60,261 bases of DNA from Bacteroidota bacterium (GTDB lineage Bacteria > Bacteroidota > Bacteroidia > Chitinophagales > Chitinophagaceae): contig JAFDYE010000243.1 in NCBI GenBank assembly GCA_018267585.1, positions 1 through 60,261 on the forward strand, read 5' to 3'. Positions 24,268 through 60,261 of the stretch are shown here, in pieces. The position numbers and the translations under genes were made by a program. The stretch's first letter is position 1. Each line of letters begins with the position of its first letter. The notes under the pieces were generated by a model that was given only the letters and a program-made list of their open reading frames with translations, was not told the origin of the DNA and did no database searches.

Positions 24268-24309
24268 TCCATAAAGCTAAGCCCCCCGCCACCGGGAAGA
24301 AGGAGGCCA

Positions 24310-24344
24310 ATTCTCATAAAAAGAGGGCAAACTGATCATTTTTC
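24310..24344 (-). promoter_or_regulatory. 35-bp PUL repeat, copy 1 (upstream of the GH28/lyase gene)
   Basis: This 35-bp segment matches 36122-36156 at 31 of 35 positions, same orientation (core ATTCTCATAAAANGAGGGNA, then ANCT-like AAACTNATCATT). It lies 42 nt upstream of the GH28-like start and overlaps the end of the HTCS gene. The position suggests a binding site for the HTCS regulator or a promoter module; this is inference. Confidence 0.55.
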
Positions 24345-28394: not shown

Positions 28395-28422
28395 ACCGGT
28401 TAAATATAACGATAAATTGCCA

Positions 28423-30183: not shown

Positions 30184-30189
30184 AACTTC

Positions 30190-32007: not shown

Positions 32008-32026
32008 TAGCTTTCGGTTGATAATT

Positions 32027-42052: not shown

Positions 42053-42069
42053 CTCTACTTTGTCAGATT
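42053..42069 (+). repeat. left terminal inverted repeat of the IS
   Basis: CTCTACTTTGTCAGATT, the exact reverse complement of 44855-44871. It is preceded by the TTAC target duplication and contains the transposase stop codon (42063-42065). Confidence 0.88.
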
Positions 42070-45131: not shown

Positions 45132-47501
45132 CTACTCCGCTCTCAAACTATCCACCGGATTCGCCCGCCCGGCCCTTACCGCCTGCCAACTCACCGTCAA
45201 CAAAGTGATCCCAACCGTCCCCGCAAAAGAAACCCCGAAAAACCACCACGAGATCTCGATCCGGTAAGCATATTTCTGCAGCCAATGCTGCAGAAAGCTA
45301 TAGGCCAGCGGCGCCGCGATCAGACAGGACAGCAGCACCAATAAAACAAACTCCATAGACAAAAGACGCCACACACTAAATACCGACGCCCCCAACACCT
45401 TCCGCACACCGATCTCCCGCCTCCGCTGTTCAGCTACATACGAAGCAAGACCAAATAACCCCAGACAGGAGATAAAAATAGCCAGCACGGCAAACAACTT
45501 AGCCAATATCCCAACCCGCTCTTCCTCCGCGAACTTCTGTCCATACTCCTGGTCGACAAACCTGTAGTCGAAAGGCAGCGTCGGAATAACCGCTTTGAAT
45601 GCCCCATCAACCCTCGAAAGCGCCGAATGCACCGGTACATGCGGCCTCAAACGTACAAAGACCCAGTTGCCCCCGCCCAGGAATATTACAGATGGATCTG
45701 TAGTGCCGAACGGCGAACCCTTCACCATATCCCTCACCACTCCTATGATCTTATAATAATGCGCAGGCCTCCACTCAGTCTCCCATTTTACGATCTGTCC
45801 GACCGGATTCACAAGACCCGCCACCTTCACCGCCGACTCATTCAGCACTATAGCCGACGAATCGGTGCTCAGCCTCTTATCAAACCCCCTCCCCTCCACC
45901 AATTCCCAACCCACAGTATTGCCATAGTCGATATCCACAGATATCGTATTGAAAGCCTGACCATCCACCGGCGGCTTCCCATTCCAGCTGAATCCGCCAT
46001 TCCATCCCCGGGTATCTGTGATCGCATAATTCGCCCTCGCGACATCCGCCACCACACCCGTATTGAGCCACTCCGTCCGGAGCGTATTGTATTTGTCTTC
46101 GAAATCCGGCAGCTGGACACGCATGCTGATAAGTCCGCTTTTCGCATACCCGACCGGGCGATCCTTCGCATATTGTATCTGGTTATAGACCACGACAGTC
46201 GAGACGATCAACGCCACCGCAACGGTAAATTGCACCACCACCAGCACCCTCCTCGGAATGGACGAAAACCTGCCGGCACGGAACTGCCCTTTCAGCACCC
46301 GTACGGGCCTGAACGCCGAAAGATAAAAGGCAGGATAGCTGCCCGCGAGCAAAGAAGTCACCACTACGAACGCAACAGCCCCTACCCAGAAGACCGGATG
46401 CGTCACGGGCAGCCGGATACTCTTATCAGCGACACCGTTGAACCAGGGCAGGACCAGGGCGACAATCCCGAGCGCGCCAACGAACGCCAGCACAGCCATA
46501 AAGAACGATTCTCCCAGGAACTGCCACACCAATTGCCTCCGCAATGACCCCATCACTTTCCGGATACCCACTTCCCGCGTACGTTTCTCCGACCGCGCAG
46601 TGCTCAGGTTCATAAAATTGATACAGGCCAGCAACAGGACAAATGCCCCGATCAGTCCATACGACCAGACGATCTGCAGCCGTTCGCTGGTCACAGGCAC
46701 ATGATTCTCAAAGGTCGAATACAAATGCCATTTGCTCATCGGGAGAAGAAATAGCGCATGGGAAGCGTCCTTCTCCTTCACATTCTTCGAAAGCAATCCC
46801 TTTATCTTCTCCGACACCTGCGTAACTTTCACCCCCGGCTTCAGCTGGGCAATGATCAGTATATTGTAGTTGTCCCAGGCCGTCATGCTTGCTCCGTACA
46901 GGGCAAAAGCGCCGATAAAGCTGCTGGCATGAAATTCACTGTTATTGGGCAGATCGGCGTATACCCCGGCGACAGTCGCCGTCTTTTCAGCATCGATCAT
47001 TACCGTCTTTCCAACCGGATCGGTATTCCCAAAAAGTTTGCCGGCAAGCGTCTGCGACAGCAGTATCGAATGGGGATCGGAAAGACCCTTACGGGAACCA
47101 TATACCATATCGAGCGTCAACAGCTCCGGCCCATCCTCCTCCATAAAGTTGCCGTCCTGGGTAAATTTACGGTCACCGCAAGAGATGATATGCGCTTCGG
47201 TCTCGCGTACCAGTGACACACAACGGAACTCGTCGCTATATAACGTCCGCAGACCAGCGGCCAGCGGCACGGGAAGATCGTCGTTCGTATTCTTCTGCCC
47301 ATGCCGCCCCTGGTTATCCATCACTTTTACGATGCTGCCATAATTCCGGTGATACGTGTTATACGAAAGCTCATCCCATATCCACAAACCGACCAAAAGG
47401 GCCACGGCCATTCCCACGGCAAGCCCCGCGATGTTGATGACAGAATAGATACGATTATTGCGCAGGTTTCGCCAGGCGATCTTAATTGCATTGCGGAGCA
47501 T
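45132..47501 (-). CDS. ABC transporter permease, MacB/FtsX type
   Basis: 789 residues. Starts MLRNAIKIAWRNLRNNRIYS followed by the first transmembrane helix, a large periplasmic MacB_PCD domain (~45-265) with LLSQTLAGKLFGNTDPVGKT, and three FtsX helices around 280-410. A second PCD-like domain follows, then three more helices with RRREIGVRKVLGASVFSVWR near the end. These eight-helix permeases are very abundant in Bacteroidota and export antimicrobials or signals with a separate ATPase, not seen here. 132 nt separate it from the upstream M20 gene, so it is probably transcribed independently. Confidence 0.93.
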   Translation of the reverse strand: MLRNAIKIAWRNLRNNRIYSVINIAGLAVGMAVALLVGLWIWDELSYNTYHRNYGSIVKVMDNQGRHGQKNTNDDLPVPLAAGLRTLYSDEFRCVSLVRETEAHIISCGDRKFTQDGNFMEEDGPELLTLDMVYGSRKGLSDPHSILLSQTLAGKLFGNTDPVGKTVMIDAEKTATVAGVYADLPNNSEFHASSFIGAFALYGASMTAWDNYNILIIAQLKPGVKVTQVSEKIKGLLSKNVKEKDASHALFLLPMSKWHLYSTFENHVPVTSERLQIVWSYGLIGAFVLLLACINFMNLSTARSEKRTREVGIRKVMGSLRRQLVWQFLGESFFMAVLAFVGALGIVALVLPWFNGVADKSIRLPVTHPVFWVGAVAFVVVTSLLAGSYPAFYLSAFRPVRVLKGQFRAGRFSSIPRRVLVVVQFTVAVALIVSTVVVYNQIQYAKDRPVGYAKSGLISMRVQLPDFEDKYNTLRTEWLNTGVVADVARANYAITDTRGWNGGFSWNGKPPVDGQAFNTISVDIDYGNTVGWELVEGRGFDKRLSTDSSAIVLNESAVKVAGLVNPVGQIVKWETEWRPAHYYKIIGVVRDMVKGSPFGTTDPSVIFLGGGNWVFVRLRPHVPVHSALSRVDGAFKAVIPTLPFDYRFVDQEYGQKFAEEERVGILAKLFAVLAIFISCLGLFGLASYVAEQRRREIGVRKVLGASVFSVWRLLSMEFVLLVLLSCLIAAPLAYSFLQHWLQKYAYRIEISWWFFGVSFAGTVGITLLTVSWQAVRAGRANPVDSLRAE

Positions 47502-47633: not shown

Positions 47634-48833
47634 TCATGACACGCAACCCAGTCTCTCGAGAGCGATATAGGCCATAAGACCCGCACCTACAGGCAACGCC
47701 CCCTCGTCGATATCGAAGTTTGGGCTGTGGAGCGAAGGCGGATTGACCACACCCGCATGCCCCGTTCCCAGTAAATAAAAACAGGCGTCGGCAGACCGCC
47801 CATACCAGGCAAAATCTTCGGAAGCCATCCAGGGGCGGGCCTCGACGACCCTGTCCGCACCCAAATATTCGCGGGCGCTCACCGTAACAGCCGCGGTCAA
47901 CCGCTGTTCATTGATCAGCACCGGATATCCGCAGGCGATATCGAACATACACTGCCCTCCCATACTCTCCGCAATACCTTCGGCCATCCTTCTCATCCTG
48001 ACGTGCGCTTCCCTTCGCCAGCCTTCTTCCATCGTCCGGAAAGTCCCCTTCATAGTGACGACGTCGGGAATGACATTGATCGCGCCGTCGGCGATCACCC
48101 TGCCAAAAGACAGGACGCTCGGGACAGTCGGGTCCGCCTGCCGGCTGACCACCTGCTGCAACGCCACGATCACATGCGCCGCTATGACAACCGGGTCGAT
48201 ATTGCTGGCCGGCTGCGCCGCATGGCCCCCCCTGCCCCTGATGGTGACGGAGAGCTCATCCATCGAAGCCATCAACCTCCCCGGACAGATGGCAATATAT
48301 CCGCATTCCAAAGCCGGCATCACATGCTGGCCAATGACCGCCTCCGGCCGGGGGTCTTCAAGCACCCCCTCCCGGATCATCCAAGCCGCCCCACCCGGAA
48401 GCAGCTCTTCAGCCGGCTGAAAGATGAGCCGCACCGTCCCGCAGAACGCACCGGACAGTCGCCGGAGGATCTCCGCAGTACCCAGCAGGGAGGCCATATG
48501 CGCATCATGACCGCAGGCATGCATGACGCCTTCATTCAAAGACCGATAAGACGGCTGACCGGCTTCCACGATCGGAAGCGCGTCCATATCAGCCCGCAGC
48601 GCAATGGTCCCGCCACCCGGCCTCCCCCTGACCTCCGCCAGTATACCCGTTCCCGCCCTGGCCTGCCAGGGTATTCCCAGCTCGTCCAGCCGCGCCTTCA
48701 AATAGGACGACGTGTTTTCTTCGCGGAACGAAAGCTCAGGCAGCCGGTGCAACCGGCGACGGTCCGCAACCAGGGAAGGCGCCAGCTCTTCGGCCAGCCG
48801 CCTGATCTGCTCTTTTAACATCCGGGATAACAT
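47634..48833 (-). CDS. M20 family amidohydrolase (IAA-amino acid hydrolase-like)
   Basis: 399 residues from the ATG giving MLSRMLKEQIRRLAEELAPS; another in-frame ATG is four codons later. M20D features are LHRLPELSFREENTSSYLKA, ALRADMDALPIVE, the metal motif MHACGHDAHMASLLG (~110), FQPAEELLPGGA, the dimerisation-domain motif GRGGHAAQP and the end motif WMASEDFAWY. It removes N-acyl groups from small molecules. Here it is the last gene of the putative amino-sugar operon, 19 nt after the beta-helix gene, and could deacylate the released product. No signal peptide, so cytoplasmic. Peptide or auxin-conjugate substrates are also possible. Confidence 0.92.
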   Translation of the reverse strand: MLSRMLKEQIRRLAEELAPSLVADRRRLHRLPELSFREENTSSYLKARLDELGIPWQARAGTGILAEVRGRPGGGTIALRADMDALPIVEAGQPSYRSLNEGVMHACGHDAHMASLLGTAEILRRLSGAFCGTVRLIFQPAEELLPGGAAWMIREGVLEDPRPEAVIGQHVMPALECGYIAICPGRLMASMDELSVTIRGRGGHAAQPASNIDPVVIAAHVIVALQQVVSRQADPTVPSVLSFGRVIADGAINVIPDVVTMKGTFRTMEEGWRREAHVRMRRMAEGIAESMGGQCMFDIACGYPVLINEQRLTAAVTVSAREYLGADRVVEARPWMASEDFAWYGRSADACFYLLGTGHAGVVNPPSLHSPNFDIDEGALPVGAGLMAYIALERLGCVS

Positions 48834-48852
48834 ATTTAAATTGACCCGTTCA

Positions 48853-50631
48853 CTAATATTGTATAGCGCCGACACTCGGATCCGATCGCCATACATGCCC
48901 ATAATAGTCGGTAAATTCCGAAGCCTGCATATAGGTCGGCGACATAAAAGACGAATAGTCGATGCCACCGGTCTTGAGGGTGTCCGGAGAAGCCGCCGTC
49001 AAGCCGAACCAACTATCGAACACGGGGGACAACTGCAAATTGGCATTGCAGTCCGAACCGCACAACGGCGCCCCATTGAGGGTCGACGCCGTATAGAAGA
49101 CCGCACTGGTCCTGTAACCCGCCGCATACGGCGCCGACGACTGGTAAAAATCGTTGTGCCTTACATAGGTGACGCCGCCCGCGGTACTGTCGATATAAAG
49201 ACCGATCGCAACGTTGAGGTCGTCGTGAGACCCGTAATTCAGTAGGATGTTGTTGGCGATCTTGTTGTTGGTAACATTGGCGTTGACGCCGCCGTTGGAT
49301 CCCATCCAGATCGCCCAGCCGCCGGTGTTATAGAAGGTATTGTTCAGTATCCAGTTGTCCCGCGCCTCGATGAAGCTGGTATGATAGGGCCACGGAAACA
49401 GGTCGAGCCCATACGGCTGGTCCGACTGATGGAGATAAGTAAGGCTGGTACTGACAACATTGGAGAAAATATTGCTGAAGAAGACATTGTTGCTGCCGAG
49501 CGCGTGACAGGTGGTCGTATAGTCATGGATATAATTCCGCTTGACGATATTGTAGGTCGTCAGTCCCGGAAGGCCGCTAACGTCGAAACCATGCATATAG
49601 GCCGAGGCGCCGGCAGAGATGTCGTTATGGTCGACGACAACATGGTGGACCCCATGGATGACGGGTGCCGTGGTGTCATAGGCCGTGAGGGTTATGCCCA
49701 CATGCCCCCAGTTGCGAACCGTATTCCCCTGTATCAGTCCTCTTTCTACTGCGTCGAGGAAAAAGATGCCGTCCCCGTGCAGGATGATGGTCGTATTGTT
49801 CTCATTCGTGGTCCAGCCTTTGTCGACGACGTTATTGGTGATCGTTATGTCCGATACGTAGTCGCTGTTGGCAACGGAGTTCGTGACCACGATGCCCCCT
49901 GCATAAAAAGAGGCGCGGCCTACGATGCAGTTGGTGATGGTTATCGAGTCGGACGGCGAATTGATGTAGATCACATTCCATTTCGAACCGCCGCGGATGT
50001 CGAGACCCGTGAGAGTGACCTTGTGCGTATTCTGCATCAGTATCGTCGAAGCGCCCGCCGGGTAGGCGGCGGAACAAGGCACTACCTCCACGCTGGCAGG
50101 ACGCACAGTCGACGAGCCCGTATAGACATAGAGGACCTTCGCCGACTCGTCGAAATAGTACTCCGCGGTCGTGTTAAGATAAGACTTGCTGTTGCCGTTG
50201 CTGGTCTCGTACTTTACGTTGATACGGGATGTGCCGTTGACAAAGACGCGGAACAGGCTGTCATAGGATAGTGAATAGCGCCAGATGCCGCTGCCGTCGT
50301 ATGTCCAGGAGGCATCGGTAAGGATCGCCATCCCGGCCAATACGGGGGCGGCCAGCGAATCGGGACCGTAAGCGCCAAGCGTAAAATTCGATTTGTTCGT
50401 CAGGTCCAGCGAATAGAGCGGCATATACCATTGATCGCCCTTCCTGAAAACAACCGTGTTTCCGTCTTTCATATAGTTGAGCGCCTCGCCGATGTTCTTT
50501 TTTGGCAAGGCCACCGTTCCCGGATTGGAGTCGTCGCCCAGGGAATGCGAGAAATAATAGGTGTTGGCACTCAGCGTTGCAGGGACAACGAAAGAGCAAG
50601 CCATAATGAGTATGAGTCGGTATAAGTGCAT
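48853..50631 (-). CDS. secreted right-handed parallel beta-helix protein
   Basis: 592 residues. Signal peptide (MHLYRLILIMACSFVVPATL), then NTYYFSHSLGDDSNPG and a beta-helix with asparagine-rich ladders (ITITNNVVDK, GDGIFFLDAVERGLIQGNTV, NWGHVGITLTAYD, HDYTTTCHALGSNNVFF). Such helices are typical of polysaccharide lyases and epimerases. No T9SS or CBM tail; it ends SDPSVGAIQY. It is a clear paralog of the larger protein upstream with the same block order. Catalytic residues cannot be named. Probably periplasmic or surface-exposed polysaccharide processing. Confidence 0.82.
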   Translation of the reverse strand: MHLYRLILIMACSFVVPATLSANTYYFSHSLGDDSNPGTVALPKKNIGEALNYMKDGNTVVFRKGDQWYMPLYSLDLTNKSNFTLGAYGPDSLAAPVLAGMAILTDASWTYDGSGIWRYSLSYDSLFRVFVNGTSRINVKYETSNGNSKSYLNTTAEYYFDESAKVLYVYTGSSTVRPASVEVVPCSAAYPAGASTILMQNTHKVTLTGLDIRGGSKWNVIYINSPSDSITITNCIVGRASFYAGGIVVTNSVANSDYVSDITITNNVVDKGWTTNENNTTIILHGDGIFFLDAVERGLIQGNTVRNWGHVGITLTAYDTTAPVIHGVHHVVVDHNDISAGASAYMHGFDVSGLPGLTTYNIVKRNYIHDYTTTCHALGSNNVFFSNIFSNVVSTSLTYLHQSDQPYGLDLFPWPYHTSFIEARDNWILNNTFYNTGGWAIWMGSNGGVNANVTNNKIANNILLNYGSHDDLNVAIGLYIDSTAGGVTYVRHNDFYQSSAPYAAGYRTSAVFYTASTLNGAPLCGSDCNANLQLSPVFDSWFGLTAASPDTLKTGGIDYSSFMSPTYMQASEFTDYYGHVWRSDPSVGAIQY

Positions 50632-50654
50632 GGTATCTTATTGTCGGTTAATAG

Positions 50655-53600
50655 TTATTTTACTAAGACGAGCTTTATGTTCTGCACCTTTTCGGGCGTT
50701 GACAGGCGGACAACATAGGTGCCCGACGCCAGCGATGACCCGTCGAGGACGAACTGATAGGGGACGCCCGCGTCTACCCTGCCCCGGTACAATACCCGGA
50801 CGACGCTGCCCCGCAGGTCGAAGACGGAAAGCGTCGCCTGCGAAGCCCCTTGCGGCAGCGAGAAGCTGACCGTGGTGGCCTGCCTTGACGGGTTCGGATA
50901 CACCAGCAGGTTGGCGGCGACCCGCCCCGGATCAAAAGACCCGATCGCCTGCTTGACGGCTGCCTCTCCGCCTTCTATCATCCTAACGGCGCCGGCGCCG
51001 CACGATCCCAACTGGCCCCCCAGCGAAAGCAGCAAGGGCACCGCCACCGGATTTACACAAAACTGGACGGAAGGCAGGTTCGGCAGGGTATAACAAACGA
51101 GAACGCCCTTGCCGTCGTGCCCGCATCGCACATCGCTGACCTTGACAACCGTCTGCTGCGATCCCGGGCACCCAAAAGCACTGACGGCCGTCGCCGTCAA
51201 CGTGAAGCTGCCCGCCGTGGACGGCGAGAAGACAGGAGTCGCGGACGCGGCATTGTCGAGGCCTGTCGCCGGCGACCACTGCCAGATGGCCGCATCTCCT
51301 GAAGCCGACAGCAGAGCCTGTTGTGGCCCGTAACCGAGATAAAGGGTGTTGTCATTGCCTGCATAGGGCCCGCCGACGGGCGACTGGCTGATCGAAACGA
51401 CCGGGTTGGGGTGAACCGTGACCGCCATCGTCTGGCTGAAGGAATTGGTGCCCCCATGTAGCGTATCGCCGTCGTCGATCACGGTGACGGTGACATTCGA
51501 CACGCCGGCAGCTCCTGCCGCCAGATGATACTTGACATATCCCATGCCGTTGGCAACGACGTTCGCCTGCAATAGGTCGAACAGCGAGGCGTTGTCGGCG
51601 GCCACGACCAGGCGGATAGACTGTCCCGCCTCCGGCCCCGCACTTAGGCCGCCGACGGCGACGGTCTGCACGTCCTGCGTCTGGCACAGGGACTGAGCCG
51701 CGATGGGGTCCATGGTCGGAGCTTCGTCGACATCGCCGACGGTGACCGTGACGTTCTTCTCGATGAAGAGGCCGTAGGAGGTAGCAGCCCTGACCCTCAG
51801 CGTATAAGAGGGCGCCTGCTCGTAGTTCAGCGGAGCAGTAGTATACAACTCACCGCCGGACAGCACGAACGGCGCCGCGCTGCTGCTGTCGCCCGGGACG
51901 GGCACCAGGCTGAGGCTGATAATGTCTGCAGGATCCGCGGGTATGGCGCTGACCCTTCCGGCCGGCGACCCGGCCGCCTGATTCTCGTAGACCTTCACGG
52001 AGTCGAAAACAATCGAGAGCGGCGCACCATGGTACTGCACGGCGCCCATGCTGGGGCTGTCGGGACTCCACGCGTTGCCATAGTAGTCGACAAAGCCGGA
52101 GCCAAGCAGGGAATCATAGGCGGGCGTCCCACCCCCGCGGATGGAAGACGGCGTACTGTCGGTCAACGCGAAATTACGGCCGGGTGCGTCGATAAACGCA
52201 GGTCCCAGCTGCCTGTTGCCGCTGCAGTAGGCCGGGTAAGTGGAGTCCAGGGCCGCCGCGGTATAGTAAGGCGGATTGTTCTTATACCTCACCGTGGCCG
52301 AGGTGCTGCTGAAGTTCCACATGTCGTTATTTCGCACGAAGACGCTGCCGCGGATGTTCGGCGTGAGATTGAGCGCAACCACCCCGCCATAGCTGTAGAG
52401 GATGTTGTTGGCGATATGGTTGTTGTCGACAGGGCTGGTGCTGGTCGCGTCATCCGACATGACGATCGGATACTGAGCACAGCCAACGATGGTGTTGTTG
52501 ACGACATAGTTGTCGTGCGCGGACATCCAGTGCCCGTCACTGTATTTCCAGGGAATCATGTCCAGACCCCAGGGCTGATGATCTTCCAGCGGCTGCGTCG
52601 TCATAGTCACGCCGGCGAAGATATTGCTGTAGTACTGGTTGTTGCTGCCCTGTGCATGGCAGGTGCTGGTGTAATCGTGAAAGTAGTTGCGCCGGATGAT
52701 ATTGTATGTCGTCAGCCCTTCGAAACCGTCGACGTCGAGCGCGTGCATATATCCGCTGGCGCCCGCCGATACGTCGTTCTTCTCTGCGATGATATGGTGC
52801 ACGCCGTGGTAGCCATATTCGTAAGACGACAGGGTCAGACCTACATGTCCCCAGTTGGTCACGACGTTGCCGCTGACCAGGCCGGTGTCGACGGCATGCA
52901 GAATGAAAATCCCGTCGCCGGTGAGCGCGGATATCTTGGGATCGTTCTCATAACTGTTCCAGACCTTGTCCACGACGTTGTTCGTGATCGTTATATGCGA
53001 TACGTAGTTGGCCGCATTGGACGTCAGGTTGGTGACGAGAAGACCCGACCCCATGGCCTGGCGGATATAGCAGCTGTCGAATGTGATATACGAGCTGGGC
53101 GATTCTACATAGACGACGTTGTACTGCGACCCGCCGCGAATGTCCAAATTTCGAACCGTGAGATAGGAAGTATTCTGTAGGAGCATCGCGGAAGTCGCCG
53201 TGACGGGCTGGATCTCGACCCTTGCCGGCCCCGTCGTTGACGAACCGGTATTGACATACACGACAGCACTCGATCCGGTGACCACGGGTTTGATATACCA
53301 TTGATAGGGCTGCGTGACGCTGGTCTCGTTGGCCGAGCTGTTCGTGGTATTGACGGCGTATTTGGAGACGCCGCCGATATAGAGGCGCCAGGCTTTGGAA
53401 TAGCCGGTGACATTCTGCTGCCAGGTATTGGTTCCCGGGACATTGGTCCAGGCAGAGTCGGGCAGCAGGGCCAGCGAGGCGATCACGGGTTTGGCGCCCA
53501 CGCCATAGGCGTCGATGAGGATGGGATTAGCAGCAGTGCCGGCCTTGCTGCGAAGGTCGAAAGATCCCGTGCTGAAATACCAGGCGTCCCCCCTGTGAAA

Positions 53601-53828
53601 CAACAGGGTGTTGCCGGGAAGGGCGAGGGCAGCGGCAGCCGCAAGGCTCTGTTTGGCGGAGTCCGGTGAGGTTCCCGGCCACGCGTCGTTACCCGAGGTA
53701 GAAAAATAATAGGTACCGGCGGACGCCATCGCTGGTGGCATCGCCAGCAGGATACCCAGCAGTAACCGGGCGAGGTGCCGGTGCGAGGCAGCACGCCGCG
53801 CAAAGGCAATGATCGTTGGTCGTGACAT
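50655..53828 (-). CDS. parallel beta-helix protein with cadherin-like domain and T9SS sorting signal
   Basis: 1057 residues. Signal peptide region to ~40, then GTYYFSTSGNDAWPGTSPDS and a beta-helix (~40-600) paralogous to the following gene: LDIRGGSQYNVVYVESPSSY, ITITNNVVDKVW, NWGHVGLTLSSYEYGYHGVH, HDYTSTCHAQGSNNQYY. After ~610 come a cadherin-like domain (SVKVYENQAAGSPAGRVSAI, ... LRVRAATSYG), Ig/PKD-like domains and a C-terminal T9SS domain (LLVYPNPSRQATTVSFSLPQ ... YVVRLSTPEKVQNIKLVLVK). It is likely secreted to the surface by T9SS and acts on extracellular polysaccharide, upstream of the intracellular steps of the operon. Confidence 0.87.
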   Translation of the reverse strand: MSRPTIIAFARRAASHRHLARLLLGILLAMPPAMASAGTYYFSTSGNDAWPGTSPDSAKQSLAAAAALALPGNTLLFHRGDAWYFSTGSFDLRSKAGTAANPILIDAYGVGAKPVIASLALLPDSAWTNVPGTNTWQQNVTGYSKAWRLYIGGVSKYAVNTTNSSANETSVTQPYQWYIKPVVTGSSAVVYVNTGSSTTGPARVEIQPVTATSAMLLQNTSYLTVRNLDIRGGSQYNVVYVESPSSYITFDSCYIRQAMGSGLLVTNLTSNAANYVSHITITNNVVDKVWNSYENDPKISALTGDGIFILHAVDTGLVSGNVVTNWGHVGLTLSSYEYGYHGVHHIIAEKNDVSAGASGYMHALDVDGFEGLTTYNIIRRNYFHDYTSTCHAQGSNNQYYSNIFAGVTMTTQPLEDHQPWGLDMIPWKYSDGHWMSAHDNYVVNNTIVGCAQYPIVMSDDATSTSPVDNNHIANNILYSYGGVVALNLTPNIRGSVFVRNNDMWNFSSTSATVRYKNNPPYYTAAALDSTYPAYCSGNRQLGPAFIDAPGRNFALTDSTPSSIRGGGTPAYDSLLGSGFVDYYGNAWSPDSPSMGAVQYHGAPLSIVFDSVKVYENQAAGSPAGRVSAIPADPADIISLSLVPVPGDSSSAAPFVLSGGELYTTAPLNYEQAPSYTLRVRAATSYGLFIEKNVTVTVGDVDEAPTMDPIAAQSLCQTQDVQTVAVGGLSAGPEAGQSIRLVVAADNASLFDLLQANVVANGMGYVKYHLAAGAAGVSNVTVTVIDDGDTLHGGTNSFSQTMAVTVHPNPVVSISQSPVGGPYAGNDNTLYLGYGPQQALLSASGDAAIWQWSPATGLDNAASATPVFSPSTAGSFTLTATAVSAFGCPGSQQTVVKVSDVRCGHDGKGVLVCYTLPNLPSVQFCVNPVAVPLLLSLGGQLGSCGAGAVRMIEGGEAAVKQAIGSFDPGRVAANLLVYPNPSRQATTVSFSLPQGASQATLSVFDLRGSVVRVLYRGRVDAGVPYQFVLDGSSLASGTYVVRLSTPEKVQNIKLVLVK

Positions 53829-53840
53829 GGTGGTGATTGT

Positions 53841-56045
53841 TTAGTGAATGATTGGATAGTATTTCCGGAAAAGATGGAGACTGAGGGACACCGGGTCGCC
53901 GGCGGGCTCCAACGGATAGGCGTTGTGCCCGCGGGTCCACCGTTGCTCGATCGCGAAATACAACGAGTCGTCGATCGGCTGCACCGGCCGGCCGGCCTCG
54001 CGGTCGCGCAGCTGCCGCAGCGACGCACGGACGAAAAGGCGCCAGCGCGGCAGGTAGTAGTCGCGCAGAAGTCCGGACCACTCGCGGCAGGAGTAGTCAT
54101 TGACGACATTCAACGTATCGGTCCAGGTAGTGATAAGCATTCGCGCATTCCACTCACAGCGATCTTTGTCCTCAAGCGTACGCCCTTTGCCCCGGGCCCC
54201 ATCGAGCCAGGGCCCCAGCAGGAATCCGCGCTGCGATCCGAGAAGACGGTCCTCGTCCGACACGACTTGCAGAAATAGCGAAGACGAGCCGGCAAAGGCC
54301 GCGATGTCGGCGGACTCGTAGGCACGCTGCATCACGGCATATAGTGACCTGGCGCGGTTGGCCAAAACCTGCCGGGTCAGGTTGACGAGATCATAACGGT
54401 AAGTGGACAGGCCGCCGAGACGGGGAATCGCGCGAAGCGCTTCGCCCAGGGCAGAGACGAGCAGGGTCGTATCATAGTCCGGGTCGCCTTCTCCCCAGGT
54501 AGAGGCGCTGTGCTTGTTCCATCCCGGGCGCGCACAGACGATCGACTCGATCGGAGGATCCTTGCGGCCATAGCGGGAGGTGTAAACGGTCCTGCGGAGC
54601 ACATCCCACGCGGCCACCATATGAGTGTCGACGGTTCCATATCGGCTATGGATATATGATCTTAACCAGGCGCCGACATCGGGCAGCGTGTCCGTCCACG
54701 CCATATCGAAAAGGAGATCGTAGACGACAGGGTCCTGGCCGATCGCTTCGGGGGCCGCGCCGATGCCCTTCATCGTCTTCCCAAAACGCGCATCTCGCAG
54801 CGCCGCGGTGATATCCAGCGCCGTGCTGTCCAATTTGCCCGTCATGCCCGTGCGGCCGCCGAAATTGGGTATCTCGCTCCATATCCAGTCGTGCCCGCCG
54901 AAGCCCCCCGGCCGCGCAGGCCAGTACTTTACCGCTCCACCCCACTGCGGCTTTGCCTCGGCCATGATATTGGTGACGAGCACCCTTTCTTTCGGCAGCG
55001 CATCGATCATCGCCTGGCGGGGATTCTCCTGCCAACACTGCAGGACCCAGACGCTGCCGGCGACAGCGCGGTCCATCGCGTTGAATATGCCCCGCCCCGC
55101 CGCTGCCAGGTCGACGCCGCCGGTCTCACCTCCTTCGTGAAAAGGGTCACCCTGAAAATAGCGGGCGGCGCCGTAGAGCCGGGCCTGCTCTTCATAGTAA
55201 GCCGCCGCCAGCGGAGCGAACAGACTGTCGTCAGGCAACAACATACCCGGCCGCCTATATCGGCCCCATGACCCCGGGTCGTGGATATGCGCCCTGGGAA
55301 ATTTACGGGCAAAAGAATGCGGCACCATTCCGTAGAATCCCTGCAGGACGGGCTCTATCCCCAGCTCGCGCATCCTGCCGACGATCTTCTGCTGCAGACG
55401 GGACTGCCGGTCGATGAGGTCCTGGGCAACAGGTCCCCCCCACCCTTCCAGATTCCCCATCAGCCACCAGGCCGTGAAGGCCGGGCCCGCGATGAACTCC
55501 TTTATTTCGCTGTCGCCGTACCCGAAGCGCCGCAGCGTGCGCTGCCATACCGCCTCCTGTCCCGTTATGGCCAGGGCGAGGTTGACGCCGTGCATGGCCA
55601 TCCAATCGAGCTCGCGCTGCCAGCGTGGCCAGTCCCAGAAAGCCATGCTATAGCTGAAAGTACAGTAGTTGAAGAGATACCGATAGGGATACCGCGACAG
55701 ACGACGGACCCTACTGCTCACACGCGGCAAGGGCGAGGGCAGGTAGAGCTGGTCGCCTGTCCACGAGACACTGGCATGACACCAGCCCCGCAGATAGGCA
55801 TAGAATGCCGTCGCCAGCGCCACATTGCTGTTGCCGCGTAATACGATGACCCCGCCTCCGGACTCGATCTCGTAGACATCGCGGCCCCGCACCGCCGGGA
55901 TATATTCCAGGCGGAAGGCCTTTTCGTGCCCGGGGATGACGCGACCGATCAGCGCGACCACCGCCGCAGGATCCCCCGCCGGCGCGCCAACCACGCGGAC
56001 CACGGCCGCGAGGACCATAACCGTCACCACAAAGATCATTTTCAT
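53841..56045 (-). CDS. GH89 alpha-N-acetylglucosaminidase-like enzyme
   Basis: 734 residues from the ATG that overlaps the upstream stop (ATGA) and starts signal peptide MKMIFVVTVMVLAAVVRVVG. It has the NAGLU layout: an N-terminal small domain (~25-110), a barrel beginning YRYLFNYCTFSYSMAFWDWP with WQRELDWMAMHGVNLALAIT, and a helical C-terminal domain. Candidate catalytic Glu residues are in FQGDPFHEGGETGGVD (~280) and GIGAAPEAIGQDPVVYDLLF (~410). GH89 removes terminal alpha-GlcNAc. The export signal puts it in the periplasm. It would supply the free amino sugar for the cytoplasmic genes before it. Confidence 0.93.
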   Translation of the reverse strand: MKMIFVVTVMVLAAVVRVVGAPAGDPAAVVALIGRVIPGHEKAFRLEYIPAVRGRDVYEIESGGGVIVLRGNSNVALATAFYAYLRGWCHASVSWTGDQLYLPSPLPRVSSRVRRLSRYPYRYLFNYCTFSYSMAFWDWPRWQRELDWMAMHGVNLALAITGQEAVWQRTLRRFGYGDSEIKEFIAGPAFTAWWLMGNLEGWGGPVAQDLIDRQSRLQQKIVGRMRELGIEPVLQGFYGMVPHSFARKFPRAHIHDPGSWGRYRRPGMLLPDDSLFAPLAAAYYEEQARLYGAARYFQGDPFHEGGETGGVDLAAAGRGIFNAMDRAVAGSVWVLQCWQENPRQAMIDALPKERVLVTNIMAEAKPQWGGAVKYWPARPGGFGGHDWIWSEIPNFGGRTGMTGKLDSTALDITAALRDARFGKTMKGIGAAPEAIGQDPVVYDLLFDMAWTDTLPDVGAWLRSYIHSRYGTVDTHMVAAWDVLRRTVYTSRYGRKDPPIESIVCARPGWNKHSASTWGEGDPDYDTTLLVSALGEALRAIPRLGGLSTYRYDLVNLTRQVLANRARSLYAVMQRAYESADIAAFAGSSSLFLQVVSDEDRLLGSQRGFLLGPWLDGARGKGRTLEDKDRCEWNARMLITTWTDTLNVVNDYSCREWSGLLRDYYLPRWRLFVRASLRQLRDREAGRPVQPIDDSLYFAIEQRWTRGHNAYPLEPAGDPVSLSLHLFRKYYPIIH

Positions 56046-57145
56046 TTTTCGTTGGATAAGAATTGGTGTACAAATGCATCGTCTGTCAAATGGGGATAGT
56101 CCCGGCATACGCGCTCGAGCTCTTCCGCCTGCCCGGGCGAAAGGTCCTCTTCAGGATCCAGACACCATCGCCCCTCCAGCAGACCCTGACGCCGAAGTAT
56201 CTCGTGAATGCCGGCGATACAGCCGGAGAACCCGTTCGCCACGTCGAAGAGCGCCGCGTTCATATCAGTGACGGATATCCCAACGCTGAGCCAGTCGCGG
56301 ACATTGCCAGCGCCCGACCCCCGCCGGACCTCGCCTTCATTCGCCTGCCGCAGATCCGCAGCGCCCGGCCCCTGCCGCAACTCCTTTATCGCCGTGAACA
56401 ACCGGACCGCACCCGCCGTCCAGACGGCCCAGTGCCCCAGCAGCCCCCCGGCAAAACCCTTCTGCACCGGACGGCCCTCGACCACGCAACAGTAGCTGGT
56501 CAGGAGGTCTGCCACGATATTGTCGTCATTCCCCGTATAGAGAGTGATGTCGTCCCGCCGCGACGACGCGCACACAGCACGCACGACGTCGAGGGTCTGA
56601 TAACGGTTGAAAGCCGCGACCTTGATGGCCTTTACCGCCGGTATCTCCGCGAACGACCGCCAAAAACGGTAAGATAGCACCCGGCCGCCGACCGCAGGCT
56701 GCAGATAAAAACCGACAACAGGAATGACATCGCCGACAGCCCGCACGTGGTCGAGAAGACGGCCCTCGTCCCAATCGTCGAGGCCGCCCAGGCTCAGCAG
56801 CGCAAGGTCGTAGCCGTACCCCGCCGCAACTGACGCCTCACCCGTCGCCTGCCGCGTGGCCCCGCAAACCCCGGCGATCTTTATAAACGGACGCTCAAGA
56901 CCCGCCGCGGCCACCTCCTCCGCCGCCATCCGTAACACAGGTTCGTACAGACCGACCCGCGGGTCGCGGATGGCAAACTGGGTAGTATGTACGCCGACAG
57001 CGACGCCACCCGCGCCGGCAGCCATATAATATCGGGTAAGCCGCCGCTGGCGGAACTCATCGAGCCGCCGGCCTTTGGTCAGCGCCAGCGGATGGGCGGG
57101 GATCACCACGCCCGATCGGAGGCAATCGAGGATATGCTTTTCCAT
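56042..57145 (-). CDS. DHDPS/NAL-superfamily-like aldolase or lyase
   Basis: 367 residues from the ATG giving MEKHILDCLRSGVVIPAHPL. The TIM barrel start resembles DapA-family proteins (IPAHPLALTKGRRLDEFRQR, GAGGVAVGVHTTQFAI). The Tyr motif is in PVVGFYLQPAVGGRVLSYRF (~160). The Schiff-base Lys is probably in VKAIKVAAFNRYQTLDVVRA (~190), and VVEGRPVQKGFAGGLLGHW follows. The family cleaves or forms 2-keto acid bonds. The ~70-residue C-terminal extension ending HLTDDAFVHQFLSNEK is longer than typical DapA (~300). Coupled to GH89 (4-bp overlap). Sugar-acid aldolase is the best guess. Confidence 0.82.
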   Translation of the reverse strand: MEKHILDCLRSGVVIPAHPLALTKGRRLDEFRQRRLTRYYMAAGAGGVAVGVHTTQFAIRDPRVGLYEPVLRMAAEEVAAAGLERPFIKIAGVCGATRQATGEASVAAGYGYDLALLSLGGLDDWDEGRLLDHVRAVGDVIPVVGFYLQPAVGGRVLSYRFWRSFAEIPAVKAIKVAAFNRYQTLDVVRAVCASSRRDDITLYTGNDDNIVADLLTSYCCVVEGRPVQKGFAGGLLGHWAVWTAGAVRLFTAIKELRQGPGAADLRQANEGEVRRGSGAGNVRDWLSVGISVTDMNAALFDVANGFSGCIAGIHEILRRQGLLEGRWCLDPEEDLSPGQAEELERVCRDYPHLTDDAFVHQFLSNEK

Positions 57146-57162
57146 AAATTTGTATAAATTGG

Positions 57163-58179
57163 TCAGTAACGCCCTTCGCGTTCCTGGAAATGGGTAGGCT
57201 TGTCCAGCGTTCGTCCGCCTTCGCAGACCCACCGGGCGATCAGCTGCATCATCGTCCTGACCGGTACCGACGGATAGCCGAAAAGACGAAAGGACTCCGC
57301 AGCATTGCTCAGCAGAGCCGTCGGCTGCTCTTCTCCCGTCAGCAACGCAGGCTTGTCCAGGAGACGCCCGAACTCCTCTGCCAGCCAGCGGACGGAGAGC
57401 GTCTCGGGGCCCGTGACATTGAGGACCTTTGCCGGCGACGAGCAGTGCTGAAGGGCACGAAGCGCCACCTCGTTGGCGTCATTCTGCCAGATCACATTGA
57501 CACAGCCCATCCTAAGGTCGACGGGCTCACCACGGAATACCGACCGGGCGATCTCCAGCAGTACGCCGTAGCCGGTATCGTTGGCATAATTGAGACGGTA
57601 GATCAGCAGCGGCGTACCATAGACGGAGGAGAAATACTGGAAGATACGTTCTCTTCCCAGGCAGGACTGCGCATATTCGCCGACGGGAGCCGGGGCCACA
57701 TCCTCCGTCGTCCCGCCCGACGCAACAGCAACCAGCGGATAAACATTTCCGGTAGAGAATACCACGATCCGTGAGCTCCGGTACCGGCGCGCCACGAGCG
57801 CCGGCAGCCAGGTGTTCATGGCCCACGTATTGGCTTCGTTGCCGGTAGTGCCGAACTTCGTGCCGGCAAGGTACAGAACGTTCGCAGCGTCGGGCAGTTC
57901 GTTGAGCTGCCGTTCGTCGAGGAGGTCCGCGGACAACGTTTCAATCCCCCGGCTCTCCAGACGGCCGCGCAATCCCCCGCCGGACCAACGGGAAACAGCC
58001 ATTATTTTCCTGTTCCCCCCACCGCGCCGGTCGGCCTCCCTGGCGAGACAACAGAGCGCCGGCCCCATCTTTCCGCCCGCGCCGAGTACCAGGATATCGC
58101 CTTCCAGCCGGGCAAGATCGTCGACCAGCGCGGGCGTTGGAGCAAGCAGCCTTTCATAAGTAGCGTAAATATCGGTCAT
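57163..58179 (-). CDS. NAD-dependent epimerase/dehydratase (extended SDR)
   Basis: 338 residues. The Rossmann motif is in DILVLGAGGKMGPALCCLAR (~28). The active-site Ser/Tyr region is around IVVFSTGNVYPLVAVASGGT and EYAQSCLGRERIFQYF, where Tyr-x3-Lys of SDRs is replaced by YAQSCLGRE, with no obvious Lys at the expected spacing. This looks like a divergent SDR. NVTGPETLSVRWLAEEFGRL near the C-terminus is typical of NAD-dependent epimerases. It may oxidise, epimerise or dehydrate the sugar in the pathway. Spacing of 17-21 nt to both neighbours places it in the operon. Confidence 0.85.
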   Translation of the reverse strand: MTDIYATYERLLAPTPALVDDLARLEGDILVLGAGGKMGPALCCLAREADRRGGGNRKIMAVSRWSGGGLRGRLESRGIETLSADLLDERQLNELPDAANVLYLAGTKFGTTGNEANTWAMNTWLPALVARRYRSSRIVVFSTGNVYPLVAVASGGTTEDVAPAPVGEYAQSCLGRERIFQYFSSVYGTPLLIYRLNYANDTGYGVLLEIARSVFRGEPVDLRMGCVNVIWQNDANEVALRALQHCSSPAKVLNVTGPETLSVRWLAEEFGRLLDKPALLTGEEQPTALLSNAAESFRLFGYPSVPVRTMMQLIARWVCEGGRTLDKPTHFQEREGRY

Positions 58180-58200
58180 GATTATGCGTTTTATATTTTG

Positions 58201-59400
58201 TTAAAAGAAGAGATCTTTTATATTTTTCAGCGCCAGGCCGAACAACATCGCCAGCCCGGCGGCGCCCGCCCAGCGGGCCACAGTGGTGTTCACCAGCGCA
58301 CCCATCACCCGCCGGTCGTTGGCGATGAGATAGAGCGCCGTCCCGATAAAGGGGACGATGAGGATCGTTATGCTCTGCGCAAAGACGATGAGCTGCAGCG
58401 GCAGACGGCCGAAGAGGATGGCCACCGAAGCGCCGATGACCATGACCAGGGCCGTAAAAGACCGGCTGTATCCGGTGCCGAGACTGCCGCCATGACCAAG
58501 CGCGTCACTCAGGAGATTGCCACCCAGCGAGGCGTTGCCGATAAAGGCCGAAAAGGAGGCGCTGGCCAGGCCGCAGAGAAAAAGCGTCGCTGCGTATCTT
58601 CCGAGAAGGGGTCGCAGGGCCTTCGCCATATCGGCGGCGCTGTCGATCCGCATATGGGCCGGATGAAGAAGGGTCGCCGAACAGATCAGGAGAACCGCGC
58701 TGAGGACGCCGAGGATGAAGATACCGGGATAACTCTTGTCGGTCAGGGCCAGGCCAGGGTTCTGCCTTTTCCTCTCCTGTACCAGGTAGGACTGATAGAA
58801 GGCCCCGGCGATCGAAAAACAGGACGCGATAAAGGCGATGACAAGGGTCGCGGCGCCGGGCGGCAGGGAGGGCCGCAGCCCGCCGGCGATCTGCAGCGGG
58901 GCGGGCCGCGAGAGCAGCATCGTCGTGACGAAGGACAGCAGCATCACCAGGATCAGCGCCAGCATCAGTCTCTCCAGCAGACGGTACAACTGCCGGAAGA
59001 ACAGGAGCCCGATGCCCGCGACGGTAAAGAAGACGATCCAGGGTATGCGGGGAGTACCCGTCAGCTCCGATAGCGCGATACCGATGCCGATCGAGTTGCC
59101 CGCCTGGAAGGCGGCAGAGACCAGGAATATCCCGATGCCGGACGCCAGAGAGGCCGCCGGACCCCATTTCTCGCGGATCAGCGTGAGCAGCGACCGGTCT
59201 GCGGCGATACCGATGCGCGCCGACATGGACGTAAAGAGCGCCATGAAAAAGATGGCGACGACGATGACCCACAGCAGGGAGAAGCCATAGCCGGCGCCGA
59301 GCTCGGTGGTAATGGTGATCTTGCTCGGCCCGAATACGAGCGCGGCGGTGATAATGCCCGGCGCAAGGGCGCGCAGTCTGCTAACGATTGGCCAGTTCAT
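58201..59400 (-). CDS. NRAMP-fold transporter lacking the metal-binding motifs
   Basis: 399 residues from the ATG giving MNWPIVSRLRALAPGIITAA. About eleven transmembrane helices with the NRAMP first-helix frame ALAPGIITAALVFGPSKITI and GYGFSLLWVIVVAIFFMALF. The canonical metal motif DPGN in helix 1 is replaced by GPSK (residues 24-27). The helix-6 MPH motif is replaced by SIAGAFYQSYLVQERKR (~215). Both halves of the divalent-metal site are therefore gone. It overlaps the Gfo/Idh gene by 20 bp. It may import the acylated sugar or an organic acid rather than metal; this is inference from context. Confidence 0.88.
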   Translation of the reverse strand: MNWPIVSRLRALAPGIITAALVFGPSKITITTELGAGYGFSLLWVIVVAIFFMALFTSMSARIGIAADRSLLTLIREKWGPAASLASGIGIFLVSAAFQAGNSIGIGIALSELTGTPRIPWIVFFTVAGIGLLFFRQLYRLLERLMLALILVMLLSFVTTMLLSRPAPLQIAGGLRPSLPPGAATLVIAFIASCFSIAGAFYQSYLVQERKRQNPGLALTDKSYPGIFILGVLSAVLLICSATLLHPAHMRIDSAADMAKALRPLLGRYAATLFLCGLASASFSAFIGNASLGGNLLSDALGHGGSLGTGYSRSFTALVMVIGASVAILFGRLPLQLIVFAQSITILIVPFIGTALYLIANDRRVMGALVNTTVARWAGAAGLAMLFGLALKNIKDLFF

Positions 59401-60261
59401 GATATCGGTCGATGTATTTTGAGGTGTCCAGAACAACGGTGGCGCCCCGCCGCGACCGGCTATCGCCAGCCGCGGTCATGAGCGCATAGATCTCGATCGT
59501 GGTTGCAGGGGCGACAGGACTCGTACCGGTATCGAAGAACGCGGCGATCGCCTCCAGCAGCGGGCCGTACCCGCGGTAGGGACCGGGGGACAGGTCTTGC
59601 TTCTCGCAGAAGACGGTGCCTCCGTATTCATACACACCCGTACGCGTTCCGCGAAAGACGCCGACCCGGTCCCCCGGCCAGCAGCCTGCGACGATATCGG
59701 TACTATCCGTGTATAGCCGCGCCACGCTGATACAACCCGGTCCCATCACGGTACACAGCGTTTCGATACCATGTATGCCATACCAGAAGAGGTCCGGATG
59801 GGAGGGTTCGATGGGCGCAGGCCCATATATGTCCGCGCCCAGGACGTTACCGTAGACACCGGCCCTGATCGGTTCGACCTGCTGCATATAGCGCAGGGAA
59901 GAGGCCGAGAAGACCGGCACCTTCCGGCGGGCGGCCATGGCCAGGATCGCAACCGCGTCGTCGATCCCCGCAGCCAGCGGCTTGTCCACGAACACGGGCT
60001 TGCCGGCGCTGATGACCTCTTCAGCCTGTTGCAGGTGCAGCCGCCCATCGTTGGTCAGGATCATAACGGCATCCGACACCTGCAGAACGTCGGCGATCGA
60101 GTCGGCGACCTGCACGCCATATTGCCGGATGGCGACGCTGTTGGCGGCGATCTTTTCCCCGGCGCCGGGTATCATACGGCTGCCATACGGGTAGGCGGAT
60201 ACTATCTTATAACCACGGAGCGCAGGGGCTGCGTCCGCAGCATTGAAGGCTTTCGCAAAGG
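59381..60261 (-). CDS. Gfo/Idh/MocA family oxidoreductase, N-terminus beyond the window
   Basis: 293 visible residues, running off the right edge in frame; an internal ATG at 60175 is not the true start because the family sequence continues before it (AFNAADAAPALRGYKIVSAY). NAD-binding and catalytic features are VMILTNDGRLHLQQAEEVIS, the EKP-like VFVDKPLAAGIDDAVAILAM (Lys of DKP ~60 residues after the window edge) and GIHGIETLCTVMGPGCISVA with the candidate catalytic His. The family oxidises sugars, inositols or N-acetyl-sugars. It overlaps the transporter gene by 20 bp and is the first visible gene of the operon. Confidence 0.9.
   Translation of the reverse strand, partial: FAKAFNAADAAPALRGYKIVSAYPYGSRMIPGAGEKIAANSVAIRQYGVQVADSIADVLQVSDAVMILTNDGRLHLQQAEEVISAGKPVFVDKPLAAGIDDAVAILAMAARRKVPVFSASSLRYMQQVEPIRAGVYGNVLGADIYGPAPIEPSHPDLFWYGIHGIETLCTVMGPGCISVARLYTDSTDIVAGCWPGDRVGVFRGTRTGVYEYGGTVFCEKQDLSPGPYRGYGPLLEAIAAFFDTGTSPVAPATTIEIYALMTAAGDSRSRRGATVVLDTSKYIDRYHELANR

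Follow-up and report, generated by a model that had tools for sequence, protein, structure and literature searches.

What pathway the eight packed genes at 47634-60261 of contig JAFDYE010000243.1 serve, and whether they belong together at all, is the question raised by this locus. The contig comes from a Bacteroidota bacterium of the Chitinophagaceae (GCA_018267585.1, positions 1-60,261), and the window, the whole 60,261-nucleotide stretch analysed here, is the entire contig (C159), the end of which cuts the Gfo/Idh gene. All eight predicted genes lie on the minus strand (Table 1). With likely start codons (ATG at 59400 for the Nramp-like gene), the Gfo/Idh and Nramp-like genes overlap by 20 nt and the aldolase and GH89 genes by 4 nt. 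The Nramp-SDR and SDR-aldolase junctions measured 21 and 17 nt, and the gaps between GH89 and BH1, BH1 and BH2, and BH2 and M20 were 12, 23 and 19 nt. The gene number, named families and tight packing (gaps of 12-23 nt or overlaps) claimed by an earlier sequence-only reading were thus borne out by the minus-strand gene calls, by Pfam and, for the DHDPS-like protein, by PDB relatives and fold. Pfam over 47634-60261 also confirmed that SusC/D is missing, so the operon is not a polysaccharide utilisation locus in the sense of one with an internal SusC/SusD pair. A SusC/D pair is located at 30190-35368, ~12 kb from the operon. Our best reading is that a recurring, uncharacterised sugar-acid module (Nramp-related importer, SDR, aldolase and M20, with Gfo/Idh in addition) has here been joined to a local, putatively glycan-cutting front end consisting of GH89 and two paralogous secreted proteins.

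Table 1 Predicted genes of the operon in the window
Product	Position	Strand	Basis
Gfo/Idh/MocA-type oxidoreductase, 5' end missing at contig end	59381..60261	-	Pfam PF01408 GFO_IDH_MocA, 1.5e-10
Nramp-related transporter without canonical metal ligands	58201..59400	-	Pfam PF01566 Nramp, 4.8e-65
Extended SDR, epimerase-like fold, YxxxC	57163..58179	-	PF01370 Epimerase, 3e-6
DHDPS/N-acetylneuraminate-lyase-like class I aldolase	56042..57145	-	PDB relatives, profile, fold
GH89 alpha-N-acetylglucosaminidase	53841..56045	-	PF05089 NAGLU, 1.3e-120
BH1, secreted, C-terminal T9SS sorting domain	50655..53828	-	TIGR04183, PF18962
BH2, secreted paralogue of BH1	48853..50631	-	46% identity to BH1
M20 N-acyl-amino-acid amidohydrolase	47634..48833	-	PF01546 Peptidase_M20, 5.5e-38; TIGR01891

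Clustering in other genomes held for one part of the operon and failed for another. The SDR gene adjoined the aldolase gene in 79 of 80 loci, including all 33 from Bacillota, and an Nramp relative was present in 34 of the 47 non-Bacillota loci and in none of the Bacillota ones (34/80; the two groups were counted by hand). M20 was the gene directly after the aldolase in 13 loci (10 non-Bacillota, 3 Bacillota), whereas 54 loci had no match to the window M20. GH89, BH1 and BH2 were found in none of the 80 other loci. What recurs is therefore a unit of Nramp-like, SDR and DHDPS/NAL-like genes, to which M20 is often added; the set of eight as a whole is not conserved. The SDR and aldolase families were labelled by BLAST, since Louvain clustering over-split them. 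Gfo/Idh homologs at 47-52% occurred in L005, L006, L017, L027, L051 and L052, among other loci.

The absence of GH89, BH1 and BH2 from those loci makes extracellular depolymerisation and alpha-HexNAc release a local front end, and their inclusion in the definition of the pathway by the sequence-only reading was not upheld. The GH89 protein itself is a full member of its family: it matched the C. perfringens GH89 at 1e-143, carries the NAGLU domains with the whole catalytic region, and shares the DPFHEGG and PEAI motifs, the Glu of each of which we take to be catalytic. A probable signal peptide was seen by eye. It differs from usual GH89 enzymes in being set in a sugar-acid operon without SusC/D. 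BH1 and BH2 are putative beta-helix proteins. BH2 had no Pfam family and no PDB relative at E<=1; among 58 related genomes six had a match including its own, the other five being weak and partial, and no relative at E<=1e-10 was detected in 394 other genomes of the phylum.

The DHDPS-like protein had no Pfam or NCBIfam match and was therefore named by fold and PDB relatives. It matched N-acetylneuraminate lyase (NAL) in the PDB at 5.2e-7, profile comparison agreed with the DHDPS-like assignment, and its predicted fold matched NAL by Foldseek at 3.5e-14 with a TM-score of 0.83 on the target. K204, Y176 and T84 (numbered along the longer ORF 56042-57232) were invariant in 81 of 81 sequences, and K204 and Y176 align with the NAL Lys and Tyr, presumably the Schiff-base Lys and active-site Tyr of the NAL/DHDPS class. 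The protein thus shares with the N-acetylneuraminate lyase/dihydrodipicolinate synthase superfamily of class I aldolases the TIM barrel and both residues, and its Ser/Thr-Thr pair aligns with what we take to be the carboxylate-binding motif. It departs from the superfamily in its extra C-terminal helices, in ~20% identity to NAL with modest E-values, and in conserved motifs of its own (HxTQFEIR, FYLQPxVGG and KxAxFNRYQT). The adjoining SDR retained the glycine motif GxxGxxG (G in 74-78 of 79 rows per position) and the Tyr (79/79), but the position of the catalytic Lys was occupied by Cys in 70, Thr in 6 and Ser in 3 of the 79. The window protein reads YxxxC and falls outside the classical/extended SDR pattern of GxxGxxG plus YxxxK. 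Its AF2 model (pLDDT 83.8) matched TerB and UDP-GlcA 4-epimerase in Foldseek. Because the catalytic Lys is missing, a redox role of this protein is uncertain.

The import step proposed earlier could be refined: an Nramp-family transporter is indeed encoded, and alignment with DraNramp and the columns of 35 sequences showed that the canonical metal site is lost. In the window protein, D56 is replaced by G, N59 by K, M230 by S and H232 by A, and TM1 reads GPSK where a canonical Nramp has DPGN. Over the 35 sequences, the D56 site was G in 35, the N59 site K in 26 and S in 9, the M230 site S in 35 and the H232 site V in 28 and A in 7, with GP in TM1 throughout. Motifs called per locus and set against partner genes gave SK 25, GS 9 and GI 1; the column counts are preferred, and we claim no link between TM1 motif type and partner genes. 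The protein is therefore no canonical metal importer with DPGN in TM1 and MPH in TM6. It fits the Nramp-related class as delimited in the excerpted text of PMC12873925, namely PF01566 homology with DPGN and MPH missing.

The deacylation step was also sustained in part. The M20 protein has a dimerisation domain and the motifs HACGHDAH and PAEE, taken here as the M20 metal site, and no signal peptide was visible by eye. Its solved relatives, by their deposited names, were YxeP (which we count among N-acyl-amino-acid hydrolases), IAA-amino-acid hydrolase and acyl-glutamine aminoacylase. As these are mostly N-acyl-amino-acid hydrolases, an amino-acid-like product is a likelier bearer of the acyl group than the intact sugar supposed earlier. 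A catabolic set that has no assigned pathway and contains oxidoreductase, N-deacylase and aldolase parts is supported.

We put at about even odds (roughly 0.5) the general account that a HexNAc-linked sugar acid is imported and cleaved by a pyruvate aldolase, with M20 acting on an N-acyl-amino-acid-like product. A specific and only tentative version leads from an N-acetylhexosamine-derived acid to pyruvate and an N-acetylated C3 fragment, and on to serine; within it we infer the substrate, the transport specificity, the order of steps and N-acetylserine itself. The substrate would be an acidic N-acetylhexosamine derivative freed outside the cell, most likely a 2-acetamido-2-deoxyhexuronic acid. 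The Nramp-like carrier would take it across the inner membrane, and the usual Lys in the lost metal site could bind its carboxylate, an idea against which the Ser of 9 of the 35 sequences counts. A lyase, a dehydratase or an isomerisation, depending on species, would convert the sugar acid into a 2-keto-3-deoxy acid, with Gfo/Idh and the SDR perhaps adjusting the oxidation state of C1 and of the C3 fragment. Retro-aldol cleavage would then split off pyruvate and leave a C3 fragment, N-acetylated and at the serinal or serine level, from which M20 would remove the acetyl group to give L-serine, to be deaminated to pyruvate.

Partner genes bear on this scheme unevenly. Amino-sugar genes (NagA, NagB, GH20, GH109, AgaS or SIS deaminase) accompanied 15 of the 80 loci and were missing from 65, which supports the proposed amino-sugar link for a minority of loci. 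NagB occurred in 9 loci where the 43 matches in 61 genomes would predict 0.32, but such enrichment figures treat related loci as independent, mix search methods and draw on small backgrounds (61 genomes for NagB; 7 for Sda, mostly picked as cluster holders). A single locus of the same-genus genome G007 combines SusC/D-like, GH20, GH109, aldolase, M20, AgaS, kinase, class II aldolase, Nramp, SDR, GH109, NagB and GH20 genes; G007:C10 appears to be the L023 contig (identical length of 167201 and identical M20 start) and was counted once. Possible routes to 2-keto-3-deoxy acids (enolase-like enzymes, assigned by reading the sequence as no Pfam family matched; IlvD/Edd; heparinase II/III) were encoded in 18 loci; in 4 loci heparinase II/III stood within the same run of genes as the core. 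L-serine ammonia-lyase genes were present in 15 loci, mainly of Bacillota. The SDH_alpha type is absent from the window's genome, so another enzyme would be needed for the last step here. Against the N-acetylserine scheme stand the failure to recognise a HexNAcA-specific lyase in the window and the same-genus genome G031, which lacks the aldolase and has no more of the SDR than a C-terminal fragment. A GlcNAcA or GalNAcA version would require an aldehyde dehydrogenase and a ManNAcA version would not; two strict motifs, used with no positive control, found none near the core. Family counts for neighbours come from a Pfam scan of 82 of 101 listed operon neighbours (one gene per cluster), drawn from 25 of the 105 families found. 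The other 19 were L070:11109-12552, which is not in whole codons, and 18 removed by hand, including SusC/D-like, regulator and contig-edge genes.

A rival reading, which we consider doubtful, is an oxidative amino-sugar route through 2-keto-3-deoxygluconate (KDG) that would parallel the ong pathway in Bacteroidota and Bacillota. A HexNAc would be oxidised at C1 by a PQQ dehydrogenase, Gfo/Idh or SDR to an N-acetylhexosaminate and deacetylated by M20, a dehydratase-type ammonia-lyase would form 2-keto-3-deoxygluconate or -galactonate, and the DHDPS-like protein would act as a KDG/KDGal aldolase yielding pyruvate and glyceraldehyde. PQQ-type GSDH-cytochrome c in 15 of the 80 loci, none from Bacillota, agrees with this, as do Amidohydro_2 proteins, a family that includes lactonases, in 4 of the 82 scanned neighbours and in L096. 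Family models and the tree place the ammonia-lyases, in appearance at least, with ordinary L-serine enzymes: all four tested subunits scored above equivalog cut-offs, and most alpha subunits are ~70-80% identical to copies outside the cluster, whereas C2 of glucosaminate is D-configured. Such an ammonia-lyase would also make the enolase-like, IlvD and heparinase partners redundant, and the solved relatives of M20 again point to amino acids. The reaction logic does match GlcNAc1A to GlcN1A to KDG, as outlined in the excerpt of PMC9537276, but OngB is of another fold than M20 in that of PMC12017989.

Rather unlikely, too, is a general toolkit for the uptake and cleavage of ordinary 2-keto-3-deoxy aldonates of several sugars by the Nramp-like protein, SDR and aldolase, with M20, serine ammonia-lyase and hexosamine genes as separate passengers. 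The variable front ends (enolase-like, IlvD, heparinase, GSDH) favour it, and the loci without amino-sugar markers or without a window-M20 match mean that the core may serve several sugar acids. M20 directly after the aldolase in both groups argues against mere passengers, as does the presence at the same loci of serine ammonia-lyases of different forms: those of Bacillota belong to two lineages of the alpha subunit, and L002 and L011 have a one-chain form. Catabolism of nonulosonic (sialic-acid-like) acids, with the aldolase as a sialate-relative lyase, the SDR as an epimerase for the freed N-acetylhexosamine and NagA/NagB as finishers, would suit the NAL-type closest solved relatives in sequence and fold, the epimerase-like SDR fold and the NagA/NagB of some loci, but is improbable given the low identity to NAL, proteins with at least two Asp boxes, by a motif scan, in only 1 of 80 loci, though BNR_4 was found in 3 of 82 scanned neighbours, and the lack of a role for IlvD, enolase-like, heparinase and serine ammonia-lyase partners.

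Extended to its limit, the N-acetylserine scheme would become a non-phosphorylative N-acetylhexosaminuronic acid pathway across Bacteroidota and Paenibacillaceae, a long shot as a whole. A sialate-lyase-like aldolase would give pyruvate and an N-acetylated C3 fragment, then N-acetyl-L-serine, L-serine and a second pyruvate; in the Bacteroidota the substrate would enter by an Nramp-family carrier that had come to move an organic anion in place of metal ions, and here GH89 and two secreted putative lyases would open a glycan of the HexNAcA/alpha-GlcNAc kind, for instance enterobacterial common antigen. The N-acetylserine hypothesis makes sharp predictions that are cheap to check on single purified enzymes. 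Three conserved families for which we found no assigned function (an Nramp clade that has lost its ligands, an extended SDR that lacks the Lys, and a pyruvate-type aldolase) are grouped in two phyla, and a substrate established for one of them would hint at what all three do. It could also show that an Nramp-family protein carries an organic compound, and amino-sugar glycans would gain a new end-route.

Among the matches listed in the literature survey, no title or abstract opening described this gene set, in line with the earlier statement that no described pathway with the combination was known to the reader, nor was a characterised Nramp-related member found in such a gene context. The nearest transporters are Nramp-related proteins such as EleNRMT and MntG, PF01566 members without the DPGN and MPH motifs according to the excerpt of PMC12873925; the window protein shares the Pfam family and the missing motifs with them, but its type adjoins a sugar-acid operon and has GPSK or GPGS in TM1. 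The alginate DEHU/KDG pathway of Flavobacterium resembles the module in feeding a lyase product into reductase/dehydrogenase and pyruvate-aldolase logic, to which the heparinase II/III genes of the four core loci correspond. It proceeds by KDG kinase and KDPG aldolase, and the abstract openings do not mention M20, serine ammonia-lyase or an Nramp-like protein (PMC8563752, PMC5334617). The oxidative chitin pathway (ong) of Pseudoalteromonas prydzensis likewise has an inner-membrane carrier of its own, deacetylates and deaminates an acidic derivative of an amino sugar, and ends in pyruvate/KDG-type products, as far as the excerpt of PMC9537276 describes it. In that pathway the deacetylase OngB has a D-aminoacylase-like barrel, OngC falls with the PLP enzymes, the carrier OngIT belongs to the SSS type and KdgK phosphorylates KDG (PMC9537276). 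The ong signature of OngB, OngC and KdgK in one cluster is absent from the eight genes of the operon, which has M20, an Nramp-related carrier and a NAL-like aldolase instead.

The sequence-only reading had described an eight-gene operon for an unassigned acylated-sugar pathway. All eight genes were found on the minus strand with their family assignments upheld, the two secreted paralogues BH1 and BH2 as putative beta-helix proteins. The tight packing claimed for them was likewise confirmed: neighbouring genes overlap by 4 or 20 nt or are separated by 12-23 nt, a spacing that would fit a single transcript. Because the window is the entire contig C159, the first gene (Gfo/Idh) is cut and its promoter lies off the assembly. 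The DHDPS-like protein had no match in Pfam or NCBIfam and was assigned via solved relatives and fold.

Coordinates of the features discussed
Feature	Position	Strand	Remark
SusC/SusD locus	21628-35368	-	also carries GH97, a hybrid two-component regulator and one protein combining GH28-like and alginate-lyase-like domains
DDE superfamily transposase-like ORF	42063-43445	-	between SusC/D locus and operon
MacB/FtsX-type permease gene	45132-47501		start 132 nt beyond M20; left out of operon
Eight-gene operon	47634-60261	-	
Enolase-superfamily-like gene (example)	L050:3817-5193		
Two tandem Nramp-like genes	L054:6384-8957		before SDR and aldolase
Same-genus locus (L114 + L096)	G007:C10:80001-113000		
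Own-genome locus (L100)	G000:C818:36001-56000		

Genome contigs were scanned with the window aldolase, and the best 80 of 573 confirmed candidates formed the locus set, with 33 from Bacillota (mostly Paenibacillaceae) and 47 from others (nearly all Bacteroidota) as judged by record title. Among these best 80 of 573, an SDR relative adjoined the aldolase in 79; in the sole exception, L023, it lies ~13 kb away, a distance that follows from L023 and G007:C10 appearing to be one contig. M20 matches occurred in 26 of the 80, directly after the aldolase in 13, and the Nramp-like gene in 34, none of them Bacillota. Conservation therefore holds for a smaller core but not for GH89, BH1 and BH2, which were found in none of the best 80 of 573 loci; the full eight genes form a local assembly around that core. 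The SDR profile matched 6 of 395 genomes of the phylum, and an SDR match was present in 5 of 58 related genomes, the own genome included in both, and in one of the latter five the match covered the last 80 residues only, with no aldolase. Given these counts and the spread of the loci, the module is rare yet scattered.

The transporter is the most surprising part of the gene set. Aligned to the canonical DraNramp, the window protein carries D56 to G, N59 to K, M230 to S and H232 to A substitutions; over 35 sequences these columns held G (35), K (26) or S (9), S (35), and V (28) or A (7). D56, N59 and M230 are metal ligands in DraNramp (PMC10185341), and a preprint (PMC12873925) calls Nramp-related groups beyond those of EleNRMT and MntG entirely uncharacterised. 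With Lys at a former metal-ligand position and this operon context, an organic anion would be a reasonable cargo. One locus, L054, has two tandem Nramp-like genes ahead of the SDR and aldolase (23% and 45% identity to the window protein).

K204, Y176 and T84 of the aldolase were present in 81 of 81 sequences, and position 83 was Ser or Thr; K204, Y176 and the 83-84 pair align with the Schiff-base Lys, the Tyr and the Ser-Thr pair of N-acetylneuraminate lyase. The same lyase was the best structural match of the predicted aldolase structure (mean pLDDT 83.1; alignment of 15 sequences). The predicted SDR structure (pLDDT 83.8) matched the TerB oxidoreductase and UDP-sugar epimerases. Its YxxxK Lys position is occupied by Cys (70), Thr (6) or Ser (3) in 79 sequences, and a different Lys, K108, is present in all 79. 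The nearest solved relatives of the M20 protein were YxeP, an M20 peptidase entry, an IAA-amino-acid hydrolase and an acyl-glutamine aminoacylase, and GH89 and its C. perfringens counterpart, which align over 673 residues, share the DPFHEGG and PEAI motifs.

Pfam identified heparinase II/III in L004, an IlvD/Edd dehydratase in L008 and GH20 in L009 and L014. It also assigned partner genes of these loci to PQQ-type GSDH with cytochrome c, to both NagB-like and SIS proteins, and to serine dehydratase chains, PfkB kinase, class II aldolase and GH109. Families recurring among 82 scanned neighbours included Amidohydro_2 (4), BNR_4 (3), adh_short (3) and GH20 (2). Of the best 80 of 573 loci, 13 carried a protein that we read from its sequence as enolase-superfamily-like, with a Tat-like start in several cases; the member tested matched nothing in Pfam or NCBIfam. 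Of these 80 loci, 18 had enzymes potentially leading to 2-keto-3-deoxy acids and 15 had amino-sugar markers. NagB was observed in 9 of the best 80 of 573 against 0.32 expected, and L-serine ammonia-lyase (Sda) in 15 against 0.37 (background of 7 genomes). In both figures related loci count as independent, and the background was searched by another method than the loci.

Four of four ammonia-lyase subunits tested (two alpha, two beta) passed the TIGR00718/TIGR00719 cut-offs. Most Bacillota alpha subunits showed ~70-80% identity to copies outside the cluster and intermixed with them in the tree; in neither G452 nor G454 was a copy found outside the cluster. A second, divergent SdaAA lineage (50-54% identity) lies beside heparinase II/III genes in L019 and L049, the latter genome having another copy elsewhere. 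These results, together with M20 in 9 of the 15 SdaA-bearing loci (within the best 80 of 573), point to an N-acyl-L-serine. Retro-aldol cleavage between C3 and C4 of a 4-deoxy-5-keto 2-acetamido-2-deoxyhexuronic acid gives pyruvate and an N-acetylated C3 unit. D-manno C2 becomes L-serine when C1 is oxidised and C3 reduced, a redox-neutral route, and D-gluco or D-galacto C2 when C1 is reduced and C3 oxidised; the D-manno route would fit one Gfo/Idh and one SDR. Counting against N-acyl-L-serine, no SDH_alpha enzyme was found in the window's genome, and most of the best 80 of 573 loci are without serine-route partners.

In G007, of the window's genus, the whole module occupies a single locus with GH20, GH109, AgaS and NagB. 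Its stretch on C10 holds the core genes, two GH109, two GH20, an AgaS-like gene, a kinase and a class II aldolase, and is a GalNAc-type locus. Pfam, run on G007 and G019, also placed GH109 nearby in G019. The own genome has a separate stretch (L100) with a NagB match and genes read from their sequences as GH109-like, MFS-type transporter and NagA-like.

The observation of an unassigned gene set was sound, and literature searches found no description of it. We rate the operon as an apparently undescribed form of non-phosphorylative sugar-acid catabolism. The closest described logic is that of the ong pathway (PMC9537276), whose protein families differ from those of the operon.
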